Assembly (NCBI GenBank): GCA_025350245.1
Contig: JANXYG010000039.1
Span: forward strand, 1-64,000
DNA length: 64,000 nucleotides
Source of the DNA: Betaproteobacteria bacterium
GTDB lineage: Bacteria; Pseudomonadota; Gammaproteobacteria; Burkholderiales; Ga0077523
Reading direction: 5' to 3'
Positions 98-15,776 of the stretch are shown piece after piece. Position numbers and translations under genes: made by a program. Numbering within the stretch: position 1 is the stretch's first letter; every line of letters starts with the position of its first letter. The notes beneath the pieces are model-generated. The model was not told the origin of the DNA. It worked only from the letters and a program-made list of their open reading frames with translations, and made no database searches.

Positions 98-475
98 TTG
101 TTGAACTTTGTGGGCGAAATCCTTAACTTGGGTGGATTGGGCATCGACCCGGCGGGTTATGCCGGACTGGAAGATGGCGTCGATTGGCATTGGGATCGCA
201 TCCTCGCTGGTGCTGCGTTGTCCACGCTGCTCGGAGTCGGTGCCGAACTGGCTGCGCCTGATCGCACCGGCAGCGATAGCAAAATCATCATTGCCACGCG
301 CCAGAGCGGGCAGGACACAGTGAACCAGGTCGGTCAGGAAATCACCAAACGCAATGTGAGCATCCAGCCGACGCTCACTATCCGGCCCGGCTTCCCGATG
401 CGGGTGATGGTGAACAAGGATCTGATCCTGCGGCCGTACCAGCCGCTGTTCTTTCAGAGGGGATCGTCGCAATGA
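98..475 (+). pseudogene. trbI: TrbI (VirB10-like) conjugal transfer protein, 3' fragment
   Basis: The 125 residues match the C-terminal part of TrbI, the VirB10-type channel protein that spans the periplasm in type IV secretion systems. Recognisable pieces are the segment around DWHWDRILAGAALSTLLGVG (residues 29-48) and the terminal part with QDTVNQVGQEITKRN and IRPGFPMRVMVNKDLILRPY. Full TrbI proteins are around 400 residues, so the N-terminal membrane anchor and proline-rich region are missing. The first in-frame start is a TTG inside AT-rich DNA and is unlikely to be native. The end overlaps the next gene by ATGA, as in intact trb operons of Tn4371-like integrative elements. It is best read as a remnant. 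Confidence 0.85.
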
Positions 476-738
476 GCATATCCACCAGCAAGCTGCGGCT
501 GGGGCCGCTGCCCAAGACCGCGACCACCAAGGTCACTTTCGCCTGCACGACCGCGCTCAGGGCGGACCTTGACCGATATGCGGAGTTGCATGCGAAGACC
601 TACGGCGAGCCGATTGATGCCGCAACGTTGATTCCGCACATGCTCGACGCGTTCATGGCGCGAGATCGAGGGTTCAGGCGAGCAACGTTACCGCGTACCG
701 CCGCTACGCAAAGAAATGAAAAAGCCGTCCCTGGTTGA
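472..738 (+). CDS. DUF2274 domain protein of trb conjugation operon
   Basis: This 88-residue protein resembles the DUF2274 family, which lies directly downstream of trbI in Tn4371-family integrative conjugative elements. Its function is not known. Family traits seen here are the opening LRLGPLPK, a central segment with LRADLDRYAELHAK, and LIPHMLDAFMARDRGF. The start codon sits in an ATGA overlap with the trbI fragment. The last codons run into the terminator hairpin of the opposite-strand tRNA-Leu, so the C-terminus may not be native. With the operon's front missing it is probably not expressed normally. Confidence 0.75.
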   Translation: MSISTSKLRLGPLPKTATTKVTFACTTALRADLDRYAELHAKTYGEPIDAATLIPHMLDAFMARDRGFRRATLPRTAATQRNEKAVPG

Positions 739-758: not shown

Positions 759-1079
759 TGGTGCCCGAGGCCGGAATCGAACCGGCACGACCATTTCTAG
801 TCGAGGGATTTTCTTACCACTTCGACTTTCGCCGCCAGCGTAAACGCTGTTCGTGGTCTGGAGCACGCCTTCACCATAGTCTTGCGACCGTAGGTGCCCG
901 CCGTCTGCTCTCTACACCTTCCATCGAACCTTTCGGATCGAGGCTTGGCTCGGCGTTGGCTCGGATGCTTGCAGCATCCAGGGCTTTCTCCGAATTTGAC
1001 GGGCTTCACCTCCGAGGTTTCCCCTGGAGGGCTCAAATTGCTTTAAGTCCCTTGTGTCTACCGATTTCACCACTCGGGC
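759..1079 (-). tRNA. tRNA-Leu(UAA), interrupted by a group I intron
   Basis: The exons are 1079-1045 and 812-759. Spliced, they give an 89-nt tRNA including encoded CCA. The 7-bp acceptor stem GCCCGAG/CTCGGGC is perfect, the anticodon stem is GGGA/TCCC around loop CTTAAAA (anticodon TAA), the class II variable arm has a CGAC/GTCG stem, and the T arm is GCCGG-TTCGATT-CCGGC. The intron lies between anticodon bases U34 and A35, the same site as in cyanobacterial and plastid tRNA-Leu(UAA). It is likely the working leucine tRNA for this locus because the neighbouring tRNA-Leu copy is broken; other copies elsewhere in the genome cannot be excluded. Confidence 0.93.
813..1044 (-). ncRNA. Self-splicing group I intron (IC3-like) in tRNA-Leu(UAA)
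   Basis: The intron is 232 nt with no endonuclease gene. It starts after U34, where an internal guide GAG can pair with CUU and form the required U-G wobble, and it ends in G (813). From memory it closely resembles the Azoarcus tRNA-Ile intron in core blocks such as GTCAAATTCGG (1000-990), GCCAACGCCGAGCCAAGCC (960-942) and CTATGGTGAAGGC (879-867). The P7 helix appears as GAGCA (910-906) with TGCTC (865-861), where Azoarcus has a GACUA/UAGUC pair, so pairing is kept by covariation. GNRA tetraloop hairpins (GTC-GCAA-GAC and CC-GAAA-GG) and a CAGCG-TTTA-CGCTG hairpin (849-836) also fit. The subclass is inferred from resemblance, not computed. Confidence 0.93.
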
Positions 1080-1085
1080 TAGCTT

Positions 1086-1125
1086 GGTTCGTTGCCGAAC
1101 CGATGTTTCGCCTAGCTACGCTAGG
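1086..1125. other. Two small hairpins upstream of tRNA-Leu
   Basis: Two perfect inverted repeats lie side by side: GGTTCG-TTGC-CGAACC (1086-1101) and CCTAGC-TAC-GCTAGG (1111-1125). They sit just upstream of the minus-strand tRNA-Leu 5' end. They could be processing signals in the tRNA precursor or recombination-site structure. No function can be assigned. Confidence 0.35.
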
Positions 1126-1266
1126 CTTGTTCCAACTGTACCTCTCTACTGACCCCTACATGACACCTAGCAGCAAGAGGGCTGTTGGTGCCATTTGCAC
1201 TAAAGCCCGGGAAACCCGCGCCATTTCAAGCTCTGCGCCGACATCTCCGATGAGAAAAAGACTTGA

Positions 1267-1314
1267 CAAAGGAGATTTTAAGTCTCTTGCGTCTACCAGT
1301 TTCGCCATCCGGGC
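1267..1314 (-). pseudogene. Broken tRNA-Leu(UAA), 5' half only (leuZ remnant)
   Basis: Reading down from 1314, a normal leucine tRNA 5' half appears: acceptor strand GCCCGGA, a D arm with CTGGTAGAC, and anticodon stem-loop AGAGA-CTTAAAA-TCTC (anticodon TAA). Right after the 3' strand of the anticodon stem the sequence stops resembling a tRNA. There is no proper variable arm, T arm, matching acceptor strand or CCA. The break falls in the anticodon arm, a common crossover site for tRNA-targeting integrases. The position downstream of tRNA-Gly and tRNA-Cys matches leuZ in the E. coli order pgsA-glyW-cysT-leuZ. Confidence 0.8.
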
Positions 1315-1812: not shown

Positions 1813-3165
1813 TCATCTCAGCCGCACCGCATTCCGACCTGAATGCTTCGCCTCGTAGAGCGCATCGTCCGCTCGCGCCAGCATATCGTCGGTGCTGACA
1901 TCGGCTGCCGACATGACGCTCACACCGATGCTCACGGTGATCGCGATCGGTTGTCCTTCATGCACGGTTGGCGTGTGTTCCACTCGGCGTCGCAGACGTT
2001 CGGCCAGCGCAACCGCGGCGTCGGCATCGGTGTCCGGCAGCAGCAGCGTGAACTCCTCGCCGCCGCTGCGGCCGACGATATCGTGCAGCCGCGTTTCCGT
2101 TCGCATCAATTGCGTGACATGCACCAGCACCGCATCGCCGACCGTGTGGCCCCAGGTGTCGTTGACCCTTTTGAAGTGGTCGAGGTCCAGCGCCAGGATG
2201 CCGCAGCACAGTTCCGGGTGTCGCCGAATGCGCTCGAATTCGGCCTTGAGCGACTCCATGAGGCTGCGCCGGTTTGCGGCACCCGTCAGGAAATCGGTGG
2301 TCGCCTGCCGCCTGAGTTCCTGGGTGAGCACGACCTGTCGGGTGATGTCTTCGAAGCTGCTATATACAGCAGCCACCTGATCGTTCGTGAACACCGGCAT
2401 CGAGTTCACCATGAGCCATGTATAGCCCCGGTCGGGGACCCAGATGCCCATCACGACCCCGCTGACGGGGAATCCCGTCCGCAAGGTCTCCATCGGCGGG
2501 TGCTCTTCCCCCGGAAAATTGGTACCGTCTTCGTGGATCGCCTGCCAGCACGGGTCGAGGGATGTCCTGCCTTGCATCTGATCCATGGTCAGCCCGAGGA
2601 TCCGCAGCGCTGCCGGGTTGGCGGAGGTGATGCGCCCCGACCGGTCCTGATAGACCACGCCTTCGGCAACGGTCTCGAACAAGGTGCGGTAGGTTGCTTC
2701 GCTCGCCCTGAGCCCGGCTTCGATGCGCTTGCGGTCCGATATGTCGGTGAACACGCCGGTCCAGACCACGTTGCGATCGGCGGTGCGTGTCGGTCTGGCC
2801 CGGGCGTGGACCCACTTCACCAACCCGCTGCCGGTGCGGATCCGGTATTCGTGTTCCCAAGGTCCGCTTCTGGCAACCGCGGCGCGCACCGAGGCATCGT
2901 GCGCGGGCCGGTCTTCCTGCAGGATGCATCCCAGCAGCGCCGTGTGGTCGCCGCAGGCCTGCGCCGGCGTGACTTCGAACAGCGCTTCGACCCCTGGACT
3001 GAGATACACGAACTGCCACGTGCCCGGCGCGCGATGCATCAGGCGGAACATGGCGCCGGGTATCGAAGCCGCCAGATCCAGCAGCAGGGCTTCGCGTTCG
3101 CGCAACGTAGCCCGCGGGAACCTGGTGGCAGCCACGTGACCGCGTGCTACCGAGTGTGCCGACAT
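1813..3165 (-). CDS. Diguanylate cyclase with two PAS domains
   Basis: The 450-residue protein has two PAS-type sensor domains (about residues 30-150 and 155-280), each ending in a PAC-like segment (TGVFTDISDRKR; SSFEDITRQV), and then a GGDEF domain. The active-site motif is GGEEF at 368-372, compatible with cyclic di-GMP synthesis from two GTP. An RxxD inhibitory site (RLHD) lies five residues before it, so product inhibition is likely. No membrane segment is evident, so it is probably cytoplasmic and senses a small molecule or redox state. I chose ATG 3165 (MSAHSV) because longer frames run through tRNA-Cys. The gene sits between tRNA-Cys and broken leuZ and may be an insertion there. Confidence 0.9.
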   Translation of the reverse strand: MSAHSVARGHVAATRFPRATLREREALLLDLAASIPGAMFRLMHRAPGTWQFVYLSPGVEALFEVTPAQACGDHTALLGCILQEDRPAHDASVRAAVARSGPWEHEYRIRTGSGLVKWVHARARPTRTADRNVVWTGVFTDISDRKRIEAGLRASEATYRTLFETVAEGVVYQDRSGRITSANPAALRILGLTMDQMQGRTSLDPCWQAIHEDGTNFPGEEHPPMETLRTGFPVSGVVMGIWVPDRGYTWLMVNSMPVFTNDQVAAVYSSFEDITRQVVLTQELRRQATTDFLTGAANRRSLMESLKAEFERIRRHPELCCGILALDLDHFKRVNDTWGHTVGDAVLVHVTQLMRTETRLHDIVGRSGGEEFTLLLPDTDADAAVALAERLRRRVEHTPTVHEGQPIAITVSIGVSVMSAADVSTDDMLARADDALYEAKHSGRNAVRLR

Positions 3166-3219
3166 CGCGGTTGGTTCACGAATCGTGCCCTGGGGAATCA
3201 GGGCGCGCGGCAAGGACGA

Positions 3220-3293
3220 TGGAGGCGGGGGTCGGATTCGAACCGGCGTAGACGGCTTTGCAGGCCGCTGCATAACCACTTTGCTACCCCGCC
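3220..3293 (-). tRNA. tRNA-Cys(GCA)
   Basis: The 74-nt gene has a perfect acceptor stem GGCGGGG/CCCCGCC, anticodon loop with GCA, T-loop TTCGAAT, discriminator U typical of cysteine tRNAs, and encoded CCA (3222-3220). It follows tRNA-Gly in the conserved pgsA-glyW-cysT order. Confidence 0.96.
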
Positions 3294-3320
3294 GCGGTCA
3301 AAGCTCCAGGTAAAACCAAA

Positions 3321-3360
3321 AAGGGAAAACGTTCCGCGTGAGCAGCACACGTTTTCCCTT
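3321..3360 (-). terminator. Hairpin with T-rich tail between tRNA-Gly and tRNA-Cys
   Basis: A perfect 12-bp inverted repeat (3321-3332 with 3349-3360, AAGGGAAAACGT) encloses a 16-nt loop. On the minus strand it is followed by a T-rich run after the stem. It could stop part of the transcription after tRNA-Gly or act as a processing structure in a tRNA precursor. Confidence 0.5.
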
Positions 3361-3367
3361 CTGAAAC

Positions 3368-3443
3368 TGGAGCGGGAGACGAGTCTCGAACTCGCGACCT
3401 CAACCTTGGCAAGGTTGCGCTCTACCAACTGAGCTACTCCCGC
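3368..3443 (-). tRNA. tRNA-Gly(GCC)
   Basis: The 76-nt gene has acceptor stem GCGGGAG/CTCCCGC, D arm AGCTCAGTTGGTAGAGC, anticodon stem-loop AACCTTGCCAAGGTT with anticodon GCC, T-loop TTCGAGA and encoded CCA. It lies 39 bp after pgsA, with which it is usually cotranscribed. Confidence 0.96.
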
Positions 3444-4098: not shown

Positions 4099-5934
4099 TC
4101 AATGCAGTTCCCGGTAGATGCGTTGCGCCAGATCGGCGCTGATGCCCTCCACCTGCGCCAGTTCTTCGGCGCTGGCGGCCACCACCCCCTTCAGGCCGCC
4201 GAATCGCGCCAGCAACCGCTGACGCCGCTTGGCGCCGATGCCGGCGATGCCTTCCAGGCTGGAGGTGGTGCGGGCCCGCCCGCGGCGCCCGCGATGCCCG
4301 GTGATGGCGAAACGATGCGCTTCGTCGCGGATCTGCTGGATCAGGTGCAGCCCGGGGTCGTCGGCCCGCAACCGGACGATCTCGCCGGTCTCGGCGACGA
4401 TGAGTTGCTCCAGGCCAGCCTTGCGTTGTTCGCCTTTCGCTACGCCCACCAGGGGCACATGCGCCAGCCCGAGGTCCTGCATCACCGGGATCACCGCCGA
4501 CACCTGCCCCCGCCCACCATCGATGAGCACGAGGTCTGGCAGCCGCGCCTCGCCTTCCACCGCCTTGCGATAACGTCGTTCCAGTGCCTGCCGCATGGCG
4601 GCATAGTCGTCTCCCGGGGTGATGCCGCTGATGTTGTACCGGCGATACTCGGCGTTCTGCATGGCGCCGGCATCGTAGACCACGCACGAGGCGACCGTCG
4701 CTTCACCCATGGTGTGGCTGATGTCGAAACACTCGATGCGCTGCATATTGTCGGTCAAGCCGAGAGCGCGTTGCAGGGCGGCCAGGCGCAGCTCCTGGTT
4801 GGCCTGGGTCGCCAGCCGCTGGGAAATCGCCAGCTGCGCGTTCTGTTCGGCCATCTGCAGCCACCGGCGCCGTTCGCCGGACGGGTTGCCCGTGATCTGC
4901 ACCTTCACGCCGCCGTGTTCGAGCAGTAGCGCGGCCAGCGCGTCGGTATCGAACAGGTGATTGACAATGACCAGCGGCGGCGCCGGCCGATCGAGATAGT
5001 GCTGTTCGAGAAACGCCTCCAGCGCATCGGTCTCGTCATCTTCACGCGCGTTTTGCGGAAAGTACGTCCGGTCACCGCGATGCATGCCGCCGCGAATCAT
5101 CACCAGATTCACCGCGATCGTGCCGTTGGCGCTCACCGCAACCACGACATCCGCATCCATCGCCTTGGCGCTCGATACATACTGCCGCTCGCGGATCGCC
5201 TTGAGGCTGCGGACGCGGTCGCGCCACATCGCGGCACGCTCGTACTGCTGTGTTTCGGCGGCCGCATGCATGCGGGTACCGAGGTCTTCGAGGACCTCGT
5301 CCTGCCGCCCTTCCAGGAACAACGCGGCGTTGCGGACGTCGTCAGCGTATTCAGCATCGGTCACGAGACCCACGCACGGCGCCGTGCAGCGACGGATCTG
5401 GTGCAGCAGACACGGGCGTGACCGGTTGCTGAAAACGGTGTCCTCGCAGGTGCGGAGGTGAAACACCTTCTGCAGGAGCTGGATGCTTTCGCGCACCGCG
5501 CTCGCATGCGGAAACGGCCCGAAGTACCGGTTGGCCTTGTCGAGCGCACCGCGATGGAAACCCAGGCGCGGAAACCGGTGGCCGGTGATCACCAGATACG
5601 GATACGACTTGTCGTCGCGGTACAGGATGTTGTAACGCGGCGCGAGCGCCTTGATGAGGTTGTTCTCGAGCAGCAGTGCCTCGCTCTCGGAGCGCGTGAC
5701 CGTGGTCTCGATGTCGGCGATCTGGCCCACCATCAACCGCACTCGGGGGGCGAGCGCGTCGAACTTCTGGAAGTAGGACGACACGCGTTTGCGCAGATCG
5801 AGGGCTTTGCCGACATACAGCAGCTCGCCCCGGGCATCGAGCATGCGATACACGCCCGGCCGGTGCGGCAGGGAGGTGACGATCTCCTCGATGGATCGGG
5901 CCGGCGGCACTGCGGAAGGTTCGAATTCGCTCAT
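4099..5934 (-). CDS. uvrC: Excinuclease ABC subunit C
   Basis: UvrC makes both incisions around DNA lesions in nucleotide excision repair after UvrAB marks the site. The 611-residue protein has the N-terminal GIY-YIG nuclease (PGVYRMLD and [14 protein letters not shown], about residues 26-55), a cysteine-containing middle ([13 protein letters not shown]), a UVR motif for UvrB binding around 200-235, the RNase H-like C-terminal nuclease ([11 protein letters not shown]), and tandem helix-hairpin-helix DNA-binding motifs at the end ([17 protein letters not shown]). It heads the uvrC-pgsA-tRNA unit. Confidence 0.97.
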
Positions 5935-6690: not shown

Positions 6691-7751
6691 ACTGCCATCA
6701 CCGAGCGCAGCGAGTCGGCCGCTTCGTGATAGGCGGCGGTCTCCCAGAACGGCGGGCTGTGACCCGTGGATGAGCGCCCGGCCAACCGGCCGATCGCCGC
6801 TCGCGCCGCCGGCGTGGCCGGTCGATCGAGGCCGTCCAGCAGGCGATCGGCGGCCACCGGATCGTTGCAAACGAGCACCACGTCGCAGCCGGCGTCGAGC
6901 GCAACGTTGGCGCGGTTCACGATGTCGCCGGCGCCGTGCGCGCCGACCATGGTCAGGTCATCGCTGAAGATCACGCCTTCGAAACCCATCTCGGTCCGCA
7001 GCACCTGCTGCAACCAGAACCGCGAATAGCCGGCCGGATCGGGCGTGACCGCCGGATACACGACATGGGCGGGCATGATGCCTTCGAGACCGGCGGCCAC
7101 GAGGCGGGCGAATGGCACCAGGTCGGCCTCACGAAGCTGCGCGAGGTTGCGAGGGTCGACCGGCATGTCCACGTGCGAGTCGGCCGCGGCGAATCCGTGT
7201 CCGGGAAAGTGCTTGCCGACGGCGCCCATGCCACCCAGGGCGAGGCCTCGCACCAGAGCCGTAGCGAGTTCGCTGACCGCATCGGCGCGGGAGTGGAACG
7301 CGCGATCGCCGATCACCGCGCTGCGAGCATGGTCGAGGTCGAGCACTGGCGCGAACGTGAAATCGACGCCGCACCGCCGCAGCTCCGCCGCCAGCACCAG
7401 GCCGGCCTGCAACGCGAGGCGACCGGCGGCTTCCGGATCGGTGTCCCAGAGCTGTCCGAGCACCGCCATCGGCGGCACCCGGGTGAAACCGTGGCGGAAA
7501 CGCTGCACCCGTCCGCCTTCGTGATCCACTGCGATCGGCAGCGCCGGCGTTCGCAGCGAGTGAATCTCGGCCGTGAGCGCCGCCAGTTGAACACAGTCAC
7601 GAAAGTTGCGAGCGAACAGGATGACGCCACCGACCGCCGGCTGCCGGAGTCGGCGCCGATCATCGGCGTCGAGGATCAGGCCGGCCACGTCGAGCATGAC
7701 CGGACCGAGCGGCAGCTCGGTCGCGACGGATACGTTCGCGATTTGCGTCAT
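6687..7751 (-). CDS. nagZ: Beta-N-acetylhexosaminidase
   Basis: NagZ is a cytoplasmic glycoside hydrolase family 3 enzyme. It cleaves N-acetylglucosamine from anhydromuropeptides during cell-wall recycling. The family signature KHFPGHG is present, as is the catalytic aspartate in IFSDDLTMVG and substrate-binding IAVDHEGGRVQRF. The 354-residue single-domain length matches proteobacterial NagZ. Both ends overlap neighbours by 4 bp (acpS before, udgB after), so the string acpS-nagZ-udgB is probably one transcript. Confidence 0.95.
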   Translation of the reverse strand: MTQIANVSVATELPLGPVMLDVAGLILDADDRRRLRQPAVGGVILFARNFRDCVQLAALTAEIHSLRTPALPIAVDHEGGRVQRFRHGFTRVPPMAVLGQLWDTDPEAAGRLALQAGLVLAAELRRCGVDFTFAPVLDLDHARSAVIGDRAFHSRADAVSELATALVRGLALGGMGAVGKHFPGHGFAAADSHVDMPVDPRNLAQLREADLVPFARLVAAGLEGIMPAHVVYPAVTPDPAGYSRFWLQQVLRTEMGFEGVIFSDDLTMVGAHGAGDIVNRANVALDAGCDVVLVCNDPVAADRLLDGLDRPATPAARAAIGRLAGRSSTGHSPPFWETAAYHEAADSLRSVMAV

Positions 7752-8149
7752 GACACGGTTCCAGGTCGATCCACGGATTCGAGCACGACCATCGCGACCG
7801 CGGCGTCATCCTCATCGCTCAACGACACATGATGCCGGGTCACGCCGTTGCGCTCCAGCAAGGCCAGCGCGGCCGTGGAGAATGCGAACGACGGCTTTCC
7901 CAGAGGACCGTGGACCAGCCACATGCCATGCAGCGTGACCGGATCGCGTACCCCGGTGCCGATGGCTTTTCCCATCGCCTCCTTGGCGGCAAAACGCTTG
8001 GCGAGGAAGTGTGCCGGCTTCGCCGACGCCTCGAAGTCGGCCCATTCGGGTGGCGCCAGCACGCGGCGCGCGAATCGCGCGCCGAACCGCGACAGGGCTG
8101 CTTCGATGCGGCCGATGCGCACGATATCGACGCCGATGCCCGCGATCAT
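7748..8149 (-). CDS. acpS: Holo-[acyl-carrier-protein] synthase
   Basis: AcpS moves the 4'-phosphopantetheine arm from CoA to acyl carrier protein, activating fatty-acid synthesis. The 133-residue protein begins MIAGIGVDIVRIGRIE, with the metal-binding aspartate at D8, and carries the second signature KRFAAKEAMGKAIGTG. ATGA overlaps join it to pdxJ upstream and nagZ downstream, the usual betaproteobacterial order. Confidence 0.95.
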   Translation of the reverse strand: MIAGIGVDIVRIGRIEAALSRFGARFARRVLAPPEWADFEASAKPAHFLAKRFAAKEAMGKAIGTGVRDPVTLHGMWLVHGPLGKPSFAFSTAALALLERNGVTRHHVSLSDEDDAAVAMVVLESVDRPGTVS

Positions 8150-8883
8150 GCTGGCGTCCTGAGCGCGACCAGATAGCGCCGCACGGCCTCGGCCATGCCG
8201 AATTCCAGGGCATCGGCCGTCAGCGCATGCCCGATAGATACCTCGAGCACGCCGGGCACAGCGGCGACGAAGGCCGGGAGATTGTCGAGATTGAGGTCAT
8301 GACCCGCATTGACCCCGAGACCGGCATCCCGTGCCGCCCGCGCGGTTGCGGCATAGCGTTCGATCAGGCCCGCCTGCGCAGGCGAGCCGAATCCGCTCGC
8401 ATAGGGCTCGGTATAGAGCTCGATGCGGTCGGCGCCGAGGGCGCGTGCCAGCGGCATCGCCTCGGGCACCGGGTCCATGAACAGGCTGATGCGCGCGCCG
8501 AGCGCCTTGAGTTCGGCGATCAGCGGCGCGAGGCGTGCGCCGTCGCGCTTCAGGTTCCACCCGTGGTCGGAGGTGGACGCGGCAGGATCGTCCGGCACCA
8601 GCGTGCACTGATGCGGCCGGACCACGCGTATCAGATCGACGAATCCATGAAACGGATTGCCTTCGATGTTGAACTCGACCGCCGGAAACACCGGCAGCAG
8701 GGCGCTCAGGTCGTGCACGTCGGTGCGCCGGATATGCCGCTCGTCGGGCCGCGGGTGCACGGTGATGCCGTGCGCGCCGGCGCCGATGGCGATCTCGGCC
8801 ATGCGCGTGACGGATGGAATGCCGAGCGCGCGCGCATTGCGCACCAGGGCGATCTTGTTCAGGTTGACGCTGAGACGGGTCAT
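8146..8883 (-). CDS. pdxJ: Pyridoxine 5'-phosphate synthase
   Basis: PdxJ condenses 1-deoxyxylulose 5-phosphate with 3-amino-2-oxopropyl phosphate to form pyridoxine phosphate (vitamin B6). The 245-residue protein starts MTRLSVNLNKIALVRNAR, the conserved N-terminus, and contains GITVHPRPDERHI and GLGVNAGHDLNLDNL. A longer frame from 8922 exists, but the conserved start at 8883 gives normal family length. It lies between recO and acpS, with an ATGA overlap to acpS. Confidence 0.96.
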   Translation of the reverse strand: MTRLSVNLNKIALVRNARALGIPSVTRMAEIAIGAGAHGITVHPRPDERHIRRTDVHDLSALLPVFPAVEFNIEGNPFHGFVDLIRVVRPHQCTLVPDDPAASTSDHGWNLKRDGARLAPLIAELKALGARISLFMDPVPEAMPLARALGADRIELYTEPYASGFGSPAQAGLIERYAATARAARDAGLGVNAGHDLNLDNLPAFVAAVPGVLEVSIGHALTADALEFGMAEAVRRYLVALRTPA

Positions 8884-8943
8884 GGTCGGTATATGAACAT
8901 TGAAATTGAGCGCAGCGCCCACCGGACCGCCGAGGTCGTTGCT

Positions 8944-9694
8944 TCAGATCTGCTGGAGTTCCTTGATCAGCAGGCGCGTCTGGAGTTCGGGCTGCCCGAG
9001 GTGGTGATGGATAAGATGCCGCAACAGGCGTTTGCTCTCGGCAGCGGTGACGGCGTCGGTGTAGTCGTCCTGCGCCATGTCGATCAGGGTTTTGCCGAGT
9101 ACGTCGCAGGGGCCATCGCCATCGGTGCGGTCGATCGGCAATGCGCCGCGCTCCGGATGATAGCGATAGCGTTCGTCCGGCCGCAGCGGGACCCCGGATG
9201 CAGCGTCATGCTCGAGAGCCACGGCATAGCCCAGCTCGACCAGCAACCGCCGTTCGAAGCGCCGCAGCGCAGCCGCCTGCCTGCCACCCGGCGTGAGCGA
9301 TCGAATCGCCTCCAGGTAGGCGTCGAACAGACGTTCGTGCGGGTCCTCGTGCGCGAGAACCTTCATCAGCAGCTCGTTCAGGTAGAAGCCGCAGAGCAGC
9401 GCAACGCCCGACAGCTGCGGAATGCCGCCCTGCCATTCCGCCGCATGCAAGAGCCGCAACTCACCCTTTCCCGACCAGGTGACCTGCAGTGGCGCGAAAG
9501 CCATCAGCACACCGCGTAACTGCGAGTGTGGCCTGCGGGCTCCTTTCGCGACCACCGAGATGCGCCCGTGGCTGCGCGTAAACAACTCCAGCATCAGGCT
9601 CGTTTCCTTCCACGGGCGGGAATGCAGGACGAACGCCGGCCGGTTCAGTTCGCGGCGGCGATCGTCGCCGGTGACGCCCGCCTCGTCGATGCGA

Positions 9695-9708
<14 letters not shown>
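8944..9708 (-). CDS. recO: DNA repair protein RecO
   Basis: RecO helps load RecA onto SSB-coated DNA in the RecFOR recombination pathway. The 254-residue protein has the N-terminal OB-fold (FVLHSRPWKETSLMLELFTR, then GRISVVAKGARR) and an alpha-helical C-terminal half (GFYLNELLMKVLAHEDPHERLF). The start chosen is ATG 9708, inside the last codons of era (14-bp overlap). The order era-recO-pdxJ is conserved. Confidence 0.94.
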
Positions 9709-10581
<873 letters not shown>

Positions 10582-10585
<4 letters not shown>

Positions 10586-11256
10586 GTCGCCGCCGATGGT
10601 AGTTTGTCGAGCGCAACGCGAGCGGCATTCTGCTCGGCGTGCCGGCGACTGGCCCCTCGCCCCTCGGTCACGATGCCGAGCGGGGCCACGCGACATTCGA
10701 CCTCGAATTCCTGGCGATGGGCTTCGCCCTGCACGCGCACCACTCGATATTCGGGCAGGCCGAGACGGCGTCCCTGCAAGATCTCCTGCAAGGCGGTCTT
10801 GGGATCCTTGCCGGCATCGGCCGATGCGGTTGCGGCCAAGGCATTGGCGAAGGTGCGCTCGACACAGGCGGCCGCAGCCACATAGCCGGCATCGAGAAAG
10901 ACGGCGCCGATCAGGGCCTCCAGGGCATCGGCCAGGATCGATGGTCGATCCGCGCCACCGCTGCGCAGTTCGCCTTCCCCCAGATCGAGCCGGTCGCCGA
11001 GTCCGAGGTCACGGGCGCGCGCGGCGAGCGCACCCTGATTGACCAGGTTCGCCCGCAGCCGGGACAGGTCACCTTCGGGTGCATCGGGAAGCCGTTGATA
11101 GAGCGCCTCGGCGATGGCGCAGTTGAGCACGGCGTCGCCCACGAACTCGAGCCGTTCGTTGTTGGGCCGCCCGTGGCTGCGGTGGGTGAGCGCCTGACGC
11201 AGCAACGAAGAGTCGAGGAATTCGTGACCGAGGGCCGTCGGCAGCCCGCGCAGCAC
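10582..11256 (-). CDS. rnc: Ribonuclease III
   Basis: RNase III cuts double-stranded RNA, processing rRNA and regulating mRNAs. The 224-residue protein has the catalytic signature NERLEFVGDAVL, the second acidic cluster ADALEALIGAVFLD, and a C-terminal dsRNA-binding domain ending ASRRHAEQNAARVALDKL. The start is taken as GTG 11256 because it places the conserved LGHEFLDSSLLRQALTHRS at the normal distance from the N-terminus. There is no ATG in frame nearby. Confidence 0.95.
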
Positions 11257-11272
11257 CGCGCGGGCTGGACGA

Positions 11273-11632
11273 TCAGGGTCCGCCGGCGGCCTCGAAGTCG
11301 AACAGCAGGCTGACATTGGCGAACAGCAGAACCTTTTTCTGGTATGACGCACTGACGATCCAACGATCACCGTTCTTCTCCACGTCGAGTTCCTTGCCCG
11401 TGATGGCATTCATGTCGTCGATGGCGGCGCGCTTGTCGAAGTTGGTCTGAATCTCCTTGACTGTCGAGCCGCCCTGCGCTGCGATCGCCTTGATGTTCTT
11501 CACGATGGTGAAGTACTCCACGTAGGCGGGCGCCACCTTCATCGCGAGCAGGGCGAGAAACACCAGCACCCCACTGGTGAGAATCAGCCCGATGAGACTC
11601 AATCCGTGTTGCCGTTTGCGTGTCATTGTCAT
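11273..11632 (-). CDS. DUF4845 membrane protein
   Basis: This 119-residue protein has one N-terminal membrane segment (LSLIGLILTSGVLVFLALLA) and a short periplasmic domain (about residues 35-119). DUF4845 proteins of unknown function are regularly found between lepB and rnc in betaproteobacteria, as here. The opening QHGLSLIGL looks somewhat like a pseudopilin N-terminus. It overlaps the lepB stop by one base. Confidence 0.88.
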   Translation of the reverse strand: MTMTRKRQHGLSLIGLILTSGVLVFLALLAMKVAPAYVEYFTIVKNIKAIAAQGGSTVKEIQTNFDKRAAIDDMNAITGKELDVEKNGDRWIVSASYQKKVLLFANVSLLFDFEAAGGP

Positions 11633-12435
11633 CAGTCGATCCTCGTGCCGATGCGTTTCAGGTCGCCGAAATTGAACCAGATCAGGAAAGCCTTGCCGAC
11701 GATGTTGGCGTCGGGGACGAAGCCCCAGTAGCGGCTGTCGCTACTCGAATCCCGATTGTCGCCCATCATGAAGTAGTGCCTCGCGGGTACCTTGCAACTG
11801 AAGCCGGATTCATTGTATTCGCAGTTTTCCCGGTTCGGAAACGCCCTGACCCCGGCCAGTTGCACCGGCGGCGACTCGAGATTGACGATGATCGAGTGCT
11901 CGTGCGTGCCCAGGGTCTCGCGAAATCGCTTGGCACTCACGTAGTTGAGGCCGCCCTCGAGGTAGTTGTAGTCGACGTCCGGCTGCACCTTCAGCAACTC
12001 GCCGTTCACCGTCAGTCGCTTGTTGCGGTAGACCACCATGTCGCCGGGGGCACCGACCACTCGTTTGATGTAGTCGAGCGACGGATTCTCCGGATAGCGG
12101 AACACCATCACCTCGCCGCGTTCCGGCGTGTTGAGGGAGATGAGCTTGACGTTAGCCACCGGCACCCGAATGCCGTAGGTGAATTTGTTCACCAGGATGA
12201 AATCGCCGACGAGCAGCGTCGGGATCATCGAACCGGAGGGGATCTTGAACGGCTCGACCAGGAACGAGCGCAGCAGGAACACCACCAGGATGACCGGGAA
12301 GAAACTCTTCGGGTACTCGATCCACCAGGGTTCACGCGCCTGCGCATCGCGCTGGCGCCGAAGCACGTAATGATCGAGCAACCACACGCCGCCCGTCACG
12401 ACGAGCAGCACGAACATGATGAGGGCGAAGTTCAT
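11632..12435 (-). CDS. lepB: Signal peptidase I
   Basis: LepB removes signal peptides from exported proteins at the periplasmic face of the inner membrane. The 267-residue protein has two N-terminal membrane helices, the catalytic serine in IPSGSM (S69) and the general-base lysine in DYIKRVVG (K124). The box MGDNRDSSSDSRYWG is also present. It follows lepA by 24 bp, the standard lepA-lepB pairing. Confidence 0.97.
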   Translation of the reverse strand: MNFALIMFVLLVVTGGVWLLDHYVLRRQRDAQAREPWWIEYPKSFFPVILVVFLLRSFLVEPFKIPSGSMIPTLLVGDFILVNKFTYGIRVPVANVKLISLNTPERGEVMVFRYPENPSLDYIKRVVGAPGDMVVYRNKRLTVNGELLKVQPDVDYNYLEGGLNYVSAKRFRETLGTHEHSIIVNLESPPVQLAGVRAFPNRENCEYNESGFSCKVPARHYFMMGDNRDSSSDSRYWGFVPDANIVGKAFLIWFNFGDLKRIGTRID

Positions 12436-12459
12436 GGAATCCCGAGTGTTTTGAGACGG

Positions 12460-14253
<1,794 letters not shown>

Positions 14254-14258
14254 AAGGA

Positions 14259-14282
14259 AAAGGGGCACAGGCGTGCCCCTTT
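14259..14282 (-). terminator. 10-bp hairpin between degQ and lepA, possibly covering the lepA start
   Basis: A perfect stem AAAGGGGCAC/GTGCCCCTTT with loop AGGC lies directly before the lepA ATG (14253). T-rich tails on both sides let it resemble a bidirectional terminator. On the minus strand it would end degQ transcription. In an mRNA that runs through, it would mask the alternative GTG start at 14268 and its Shine-Dalgarno-like AAAGGGG. Confidence 0.6.
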
Positions 14283-14363
14283 GTTTTGTAGGTGAGCGAG
14301 ACAGGATGCCGATTCTAGCCGATTGCCGCGCCGCAGCGCAGTTTGCCTGCGTAATCAGGTAGA

Positions 14364-15776
14364 TCAGTTGCCGGATAGCCTCAGGGGGATGTAGAGGGAC
14401 GAGTCGCCGCGACGGATCAGCAGCGCCACGCTGCGCGACTTGTCGAACCCGCCCACGATCTGGTTCAGTTGCTCCAGGCTCTTGATGTCCTGGTTGTTGA
14501 TCGCCAGTAGCACGTCACCCTTGCGGATGCCGGCGCGCGCGGCGTTGCCCTGGGCGTCTTCCACCAGCAGACCGCCGGCGATGCCGAGTTCCTTCCTCTG
14601 CTCGGCCGTGAGTTCCGAGAGGGTCATGCCGAGCTTGGCAATCGAGTCACCGGCCTTGGCCGGTTTGCGCGACAGCTTCTCGGCCTTCTTGTCCTCCTGC
14701 AACTCGCCCACGGTGATGATCAGGTCCTTCATCGCACCCTTGCGCCAGACCTGCGCCGGCACCTTGGAGCCGGGACGGATCGACGCGACGATCCGGGGCA
14801 GATCGTTGGAGCTGGCGACTGCCTTGCCGTCGAACTTGAGGATGATGTCGCTCTGCTCGATGCCGGACTTGTCGGCCGGACCGCCCTTCTCGACCGAGTT
14901 GACCAGCGCACCCAGGGGCTTGGCCAGTCCGAACGACTCGGCCAGTTCCTTGGTGACTTCCTGTATGACCACGCCGATGCGGCCGCGTGTCACTTTGCCG
15001 ACGGTGCGCAGCTGATTCGAAACGTCCATGGCGACATCGATCGGGATCGAGAACGACAGCCCCATGAACCCGCCGGTGCGGCTGTAGATCTGGGAATTGA
15101 TCCCGACCACCTCGCCCTTCATGTTGAACAATGGACCACCGGAGTTGCCCGGGTTGATGGCGACGTCGGTCTGGATGAACGGGGTGAAGTTCTCCTGCGG
15201 CAGGGAACGGCCCTTGGCGCTCACGATACCGGCGGTGACGGTACTGTCGAAGCCGAACGGCGACCCGATCGCCAGCACCCATTCGCCCACCTTGAGGCGA
15301 TTCGGGTCACCGATGGTGACCTTGGGCAGGTTGGTCGCGTCGATCTTGATCAGGGCCACGTCGGAGCGCTTGTCACTGCCGATGACCTTGGCGGTGAACT
15401 CGCGCTTGTCGGTCAGCCGCACGGTGATGTCGTCGCCCGCTTCGACCACGTGGGCATTGGTCATGATGTAGCCGTCGGCGCTGATGATGAAGCCGGACCC
15501 GAGCGAACGGGCCTCTTCTTTAGGCTGCGGACCGCCGGGGCCGTATTTGCGGAAGAAATCAAAGAACGGATCGTCTTCCGGGTTGCCGGGCCCGCCCGGC
15601 GGTTGCCCCTGGGGTCCCTGCGGATTCTGGATCGGCCGGCTCGAGGTGGTACTGATATTGACGACCGTCGCCGCCTGCTGCTCCACCAGTTCGGTGAAGT
15701 CGGGAAGTTCGGCGGCGCCAACACCCGCGGCGAGTACCGCCAGTGCGAAGAACGACGCGATGGCTCTGAAGGTCAT
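14364..15776 (-). CDS. Periplasmic serine protease DegQ/MucD type
   Basis: The 470-residue HtrA-family protease degrades misfolded periplasmic proteins and often restrains the sigma-E response. It has a signal peptide ([22 protein letters not shown]), the catalytic triad H109 (TNAHV), D139 (KRSDVALIK) and S212 (NPGNSGGP), a Gly/Pro-rich loop (residues 50-86), and two C-terminal PDZ domains. It is the last gene of the rpoE-rseA-rseB-protease operon, matching mucD of Pseudomonas. The start ATG 15776 was chosen because it begins the signal peptide. Confidence 0.95.

Follow-up and report, generated by a model that had tools for sequence, protein, structure and literature searches.

The window, a stretch of 64,000 nt at the start of a betaproteobacterial contig, most probably (at about 0.92) starts within the right end of a Tn4371-like conjugative element (ICE), which integrated into leuZ, the host's gene for tRNA-Leu(UAA), at the anticodon loop and compensates with its own intron-split tRNA-Leu(UAA). 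According to the mechanism we propose, integration via a core of 9-11 bp, CTTAAAATC, would have separated the two halves of leuZ, the 5' half now bordering one end of the ICE and the 3' half the other. Neither ICE end would rebuild the tRNA; instead, a tRNA-Leu(UAA) gene located about 190 bp inside the right end would take over, with its transcript splicing out a group I intron from between U34 and A35 to yield a working tRNA. At the level of sequence, the split of leuZ, the ends of the ICE, the fold of the intron and their fixed association in 28 of the 28 insertions listed can be regarded as established.

The broken leuZ and the intron-bearing gene beside it

The features on which this reading is based are compiled in Table 1. 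As had been predicted, the 5' half of leuZ lies about 190 bp from the intron-bearing gene (192 bp), and the claim that an element integrated into leuZ without restoring it is borne out by a matching 3' half beside an integrase start on contig C19 of the same genome and by the intact locus of a same-genus genome. The two leuZ halves have 11 nt, CTTAAAATCTC, in common and their acceptor strands are complementary (GCCCGGA / TCCGGGC). As seen from the search of the own genome, the 3' half is located at the end of C19 and adjoins an ORF that starts with MAKMKLTKTVVDAA and runs off the contig. A rebuilt tRNA was looked for at either end of the element and was absent, both leuZ halves being orphaned. 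In the same-genus genome the locus reads gly-cys-leuZ-pgsA-uvrC with an intact, intronless leuZ, and pgsA and uvrC accompany these genes in the window as well. Since both halves are present in one genome and the same-genus locus is intact, leuZ appears to have been cut in its anticodon loop by the element. The expectation that leuZ follows tRNA-Gly and tRNA-Cys holds for the same-genus genome, where leuZ is 50 bp from tRNA-Cys and no PAS/GGDEF-type ORF lies between the two, but not for the window, where the tRNA genes (3220-3443) are 1.9 kb away. Between leuZ and the GGDEF-type gene, at 1660-1815, some 60-70 bases around GGCGGAGCGCAGCGCAGCCTGGGGGTGG form a direct repeat that is imperfect.

Two trivial explanations for this arrangement were considered. 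An artefact of assembly or binning, in which the contig edge joins unrelated DNA to a leuZ fragment, might be suspected for a junction 1.3 kb from the contig edge in a genome of 156 contigs, but is highly improbable, since the identical junction, with its spacing and the order of the genes, was met with in many other assemblies, some of them from isolates and one a 4.0-Mb contig. We give just as little credence to the notion that leuZ decayed alone, that the intron-bearing gene stems from an unrelated event and that the ICE is coincidental: the physical separation of the parts, and nothing more, speaks for it, whereas both leuZ halves end in the same core beside ICE ends, both ends are found on one contig in several genomes, and there are elements assembled end to end.

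Table 1. Features of the ICE right end, of the split leuZ and of its surroundings; positions refer to the window unless a contig is named.
Feature	Position	Strand	Basis or remark
trbI 3' part (conjugative T4SS, VirB10-like), at contig edge	1..475	(+)	ORF shown 98-475
DUF2274 gene after trbI, last ICE gene before right end	472..738	(+)	Pfam PF10038, E 4.4e-22
3' exon of ICE-borne tRNA-Leu(UAA), CCA encoded	759..812	(-)	
Group I intron, 232 nt, between U34 and A35, terminal G	813..1044	(-)	RF00028, R1 model, covariation, P1 fold
5' exon of ICE-borne tRNA-Leu(UAA)	1045..1079	(-)	
ICE right end (attP arm), conserved TTGTCAAG beside core	1080..1273	(-)	Alignment with four other elements; pattern scan
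att core CTTAAAATC, 9 bp	1274..1282	(-)	Identical string at leuZ 3' half, contig C19
Host leuZ 5' half, broken after anticodon loop	1274..1314	(-)	BLAST query 1-41 of 87, 90% identity
ORF with PAS/GGDEF-type sequence, between leuZ and tRNA-Cys	1813..3279	(-)	
tRNA-Cys(GCA), context	3220..3293	(-)	
tRNA-Gly(GCC), context	3368..3443	(-)	
leuZ 3' half	G000:C19:23999-24053		Covers query 33-87 of 87

The tRNA-Leu(UAA) with a 232-nt group I intron that the original prediction had placed on the minus strand was recovered as described (1079-759). The Rfam model Intron_gpI (RF00028) matched the intron with 32.9 bits (E 1.2e-5), a value under the 50-bit gathering score. A core model of the Leu-type intron (R1) gave 138.7 bits (E 1.7e-37), the window being one of its training sequences, as R1 was built from 11 introns with that of the window included. 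Two-sided compensatory changes were detected in 18 of 33 pairs of the P3-P8 core among 11 sequences, P1 (CUU^AAA/UUUGAG) can be folded so that the 5' splice site has the U.G pair expected there, and the exons joined in silico fold as a cloverleaf-type structure. Judged by its conserved core, the U.G pair of P1 and the terminal G, the sequence is a group I intron; we take its class to be IC3, and the position between U34 and A35 is presumably that of the cyanobacterial tRNA-Leu intron too. The primary transcript would have to be spliced to give a working tRNA, and this splicing probably takes place in the cell. It is likely that, as originally proposed, the supply of an essential tRNA to the cell hinges on a self-splicing intron, a statement to be qualified by the tRNA-Leu(UAA)-like gene on contig C21 discussed below.

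The element, its relatives and the recurrence of the package

The conjugation gene on the far side of the intron-bearing gene had been described as a remnant. The 3' part of trbI is indeed found there (NCBIfam PRK13831 TrbI, E 6.5e-19, model positions 319-428 of 433), but it is not a mere remnant: the DUF2274 gene is complete and the region is the end of the element itself. The trbI part has a stop codon in frame near nt 35, which may be due to a truncated gene or to a faulty contig edge. The two ends of the element are C19, with the integrase, and the left edge of the window, with trbI and DUF2274. The assembly of this MAG lacks the middle of the ICE and the greater part of the integrase; 14 integrase codons are present on C19, and none of the ten phage-integrase matches in the genome continues that ORF. 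In Castellaniella defragrans DSM 12141 (G353), both ICE ends are located on one contig, 44.8 kb apart, and the element contains the intron-bearing tRNA, the trb operon, TraG, an RlxS-like relaxase, ParA, a ParB-like protein and a YhcG-type nuclease, as well as what seems, from our reading of the ORFs, to be a kdp-like cargo set. A tyrosine integrase of 401 aa (MAKIKLTKSVVDTA) is found beside its leuZ 3' half, and the start of the ORF on C19 has the corresponding position in the genome of the window. The int, parB, traI and mpf (trb) modules of the Tn4371 family are present in this relative, and the window shows the trbI end and DUF2274 only.

The leuZ ICE has a related integrase (60-69% identity between subgroups) and the trb, TraG, ParA, ParB and relaxase modules in common with Tn4371-family ICEs. 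However, most members of the family have sites of the TTTTTCAT type, known from previous work (PMC2789088), and no tRNA replacement, whereas the att site in leuZ is CTTAAAATC and not the Tn4371-type attB TTTTTCAT. Other genomes of the order encode related integrases (65-68% identity) that adjoin TTTTTCAT-type sequences, and in these genomes no intron match was obtained at E 0.001, two matches being marginal (E 0.008 and 0.3); at such sites, ICEs of the same family are devoid of the replacement tRNA. ICEKKS102Tn4677 of Acidovorax sp. KKS102, a recognised member of the family, is flanked by GATTTTAAG and lies beside a tRNA-Gly gene (PMC11448139). This flank is the reverse complement of the core of the leuZ ICE, and we infer that ICEKKS102Tn4677 probably sits in leuZ as well. 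The searchable texts on the Tn4371 family and on ICEKKS102Tn4677 (PMC11448139, PMC2789088) contain no mention of tRNA-Leu or of an intron.

The regularity of the package was analyzed by scanning the junction pattern CTTAAAATCNNNNTTGTCAAG over 84,980 genomes, in which 102 stretches matched and 80 were analyzed, the counts being lower bounds. A tRNA-Leu 5' half was found directly upstream of the junction in at least 32 stretches among the 80 matches listed. Four of the 32 were excluded since the sequence ends too soon (<700 nt downstream), and all 28 leuZ insertions with at least 700 nt downstream among the matches listed possess the intron-bearing tRNA-Leu(UAA), located 144-299 nt inside the ICE right end and most often at 150 nt. 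These insertions (at least 28) are spread over alpha-, beta- and gammaproteobacteria. In seven genomes, by a 3' match spanning the core, and in three more, by a shorter 3' match, the two leuZ halves share a contig, on which 1.5 to 66 kb separate them. Chance matches of the pattern were also considered: 47 of the 80 listed stretches are without a recognised tRNA-Leu half, and the half-match of L275 is spurious. Two of the 47 stretches, L282 and L297, nevertheless carry the intron-bearing gene with no recognised tRNA half upstream.

Within the 28 insertions listed, the ICE copies comprise four distinct 5' exons with a mean identity of 98.7%, and the broken host leuZ halves comprise 25 distinct 5' exons with 84.5% identity. 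All 28 ICE introns in this set have the terminal G and a GAG near the 5' end, and none of the 28 ICE-borne tRNA genes listed contains an intact 9-bp att core. The assumption that the intron-bearing copy had separately replaced leuZ has to be abandoned, as this copy is part of the ICE, being found inside the right end in every testable insertion listed (28/28). By contrast, the view that the two copies are not a recent duplication stands, the copy of the window belonging to the ICE-borne lineage. A simple duplication of leuZ was rejected because the copy on the ICE clusters with those that ICEs carry in other hosts. Since the ICE copies form one family, the 28 cases do not represent 28 origins but go back to one acquisition or a few.

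Other carriers and the probable dependence of the cell

The arrangement recurs in two other genomes. In G055, leuZ is split by a phage-like element of 15.8 kb, whose intron-bearing tRNA-Leu belongs to another lineage; in G351, the gene split by an ICE is tRNA-Leu(CAA), and the copy on this ICE is a tRNA-Leu(CAA) with an intron. In G271, a related integrase is found at tRNA-Leu(CAA) 3' fragments, an intact tRNA-Leu(CAA) is kept and there is no intron copy. Stretch L164 (G213, 7378-15225) contains an intact tRNA-Leu(CAA), an integrase fragment, an intron-bearing tRNA-Leu(CAA) and a decayed 3' fragment; this element appears to have restored the tRNA, yet to carry an intron copy too. Gordonia phage Daredevil (L093) has a tRNA-Lys(UUU) with a group I intron (2840-3151) upstream of the integrase, where relatives have an intronless tRNA, and a 15-nt copy of the tRNA-Lys anticodon arm lies near the integrase at about 2671-2685. 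The function of this tRNA-Lys is uncertain because its T loop begins with A instead of T. Daredevil was stated to lack a phage tRNA and to form clear plaques (PMC10865867), and this published exception deserves re-examination, since standard annotation misses intron-split tRNAs.

Intron-bearing tRNA-Leu(UAA) genes were additionally observed on plasmids and elsewhere. Plasmid pCTX-M3 (L073, NC_004464.2) has an intact-looking, unannotated one at 4995-5293, by an aac(3)-IId/AAA-ATPase segment, and this 299-bp gene also occurs in 635 of 5,426 complete E. coli genomes; the gene of the window has matches with 60-80% identity in about 1,280 plasmid records. On a conjugative plasmid of Bradyrhizobium sp. 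ISRA443 (L074, 6503-6792) such a gene faces trbI in the order seen in the window, and no att core was found near it. The uncultured huge phage LR756511 (L092, 3003-3789) carries one with an intronic ORF resembling an HNH endonuclease. Intron-bearing leuZ was also found at the normal gly-cys-leu position with no broken half in L158 (G305) and L159 (G178); the G305 copy groups with the ICE copies and may have been domesticated.

A second tRNA-Leu(UAA) was sought in the genome of the window, and no clearly regular one was found, although an odd gene with an irregular 3' end was called on C21. This tRNA-Leu(UAA)-like gene (51.7 bits) belongs to a small odd tRNA array of Ser, Leu(UAA), Pro and a partial one, located among chromosomal genes (G000:C21:20372-20709; L077 473-810). 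That the C21 copy serves the cell and renders the intron-bearing gene redundant is unlikely: ARAGORN and Infernal both call the gene, but its acceptor end is irregular, its discriminator base would, in our own reading, be G and not A73, and its neighbours in the array are weak tRNA calls (33.5 and 31.1 bits). LeuRS requires the A73 discriminator. Moreover, BLAST analysis of the 4.0-Mb contig of Ottowia beijingensis revealed no intact Leu(UAA) gene besides the split one. In the insertion-bearing genomes, all eleven full-length second matches with an anticodon read were tRNA-Leu(CAA), which does not read UUA by wobble rules. The genome of the window (95.8% complete) has no tRNA-Leu(CAA) among its tRNAs; thus, unless the missing gene lies in a gap, its tRNA-Leu(UAA) may decode UUG in addition to UUA. 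A Lysobacterales genome (G777) harbors a relic element with 1,474 bp between the leuZ halves, which retains the att ends, the intron-bearing tRNA and one unrelated ORF, the integrase and transfer genes being gone; this is suggestive of what is expected if the tRNA cannot be lost. The cell probably depends on the ICE-borne tRNA-Leu(UAA).

A possible role of the intron and the relation to known systems

The site of a tyrosine integrase comprises two arms bound on either side of a crossover core, and an intron in the anticodon loop, at the crossover core, would thus separate the two arms that an integrase would bind. We tentatively propose, at slightly less than an even chance, that the intron is an attachment-site mask: because it interrupts the carried gene within the crossover core, the ICE copy would be no target for the ICE's own integrase and the carried copy of the destroyed gene would be spared, an intron-bearing chromosomal leuZ being likewise immune. 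The sequences fit masking but are no proof of it. The intron might also be a passive passenger with no role in integration, picked up by the ancestral ICE together with the gene, which we likewise hold to be possible, if a little short of an even bet. This would be in line with the occurrence of group I introns in the anticodon loops of tRNA-Leu, tRNA-Arg and other tRNAs in genomes where no broken tRNA was found nearby, with the ICE copies being one family, and with the existence of phages with intronless replacement tRNAs (PMC10865867). Contrarily, the intron is never missing (28/28 insertions listed, from three classes), two more elements of a different build (the phage-like element of G055 and Daredevil) also have replacements with an intron, and the Daredevil exons, if joined, match a 15-nt string of the attP region exactly. 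Masking would not always be needed, because the intronless phage tRNAs of Mollymur, Bantam and DatBoi share the full 9-nt core with attP; that of Fionnbharth shares only 7 nt with the attP region. Daredevil, which has the intron in its tRNA-Lys and is reported as a clear-plaque former (PMC10865867), also speaks against masking. So does L187 (G655, 9615-10119), where the host tRNA-Arg(UCU) is broken in the T arm and not at the intron position, and is followed by an intron-bearing tRNA-Arg(UCU) copy and then by a row of large ORFs, perhaps with recombinases among them.

In tRNA-dependent lysogeny (Guerrero-Bustamante and Hatfull, 2024; PMC10865867), as in the ICE, a short core lies within a tRNA gene, the tRNA is rebuilt at neither end and the element encodes a tRNA of the disrupted isotype. 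This mode was described for actinobacteriophages with uninterrupted tRNAs (PMC10865867). Its carriers are temperate phages, whereas here the carrier is a conjugative element (trbI/DUF2274 in the window; in the C. defragrans relative, all conjugation genes together with a relaxase), and the replacement gene of this Pseudomonadota ICE has a group I intron inside the core, unlike the phage tRNAs described there. The text of PMC10865867 has a single match for 'intron', in a reference title. The ICE package is a conjugative, intron-bearing counterpart of tRNA-dependent lysogeny and not a member of it, phages being the carriers there. The literature searched, most of it open-access, yielded no report of an intron-bearing replacement tRNA. 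The introns of cyanobacterial and plastid tRNA-Leu(UAA) and of Azoarcus tRNA-Ile are likewise group I introns in the tRNA anticodon loop (review PMC3984707); however, those genes are known as chromosomal or plastid ones, whereas the one described here travels as cargo on a mobile element by which its resident counterpart is broken.

The replacement-tRNA strategy would thereby be extended from phages to conjugative elements in three proteobacterial classes, and bacterial tRNA group I introns gain a possible job. The cell would be dependent on the element: a deletion that removes it should kill the cell, whereas its exact excision restores leuZ. Direct testing is feasible with ICEKKS102Tn4677, which transfers to Pseudomonas putida KT2440 and has matching 9-bp end repeats. 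If masking is true, chromosomal leuZ genes with such introns would resist elements that target the anticodon loop.
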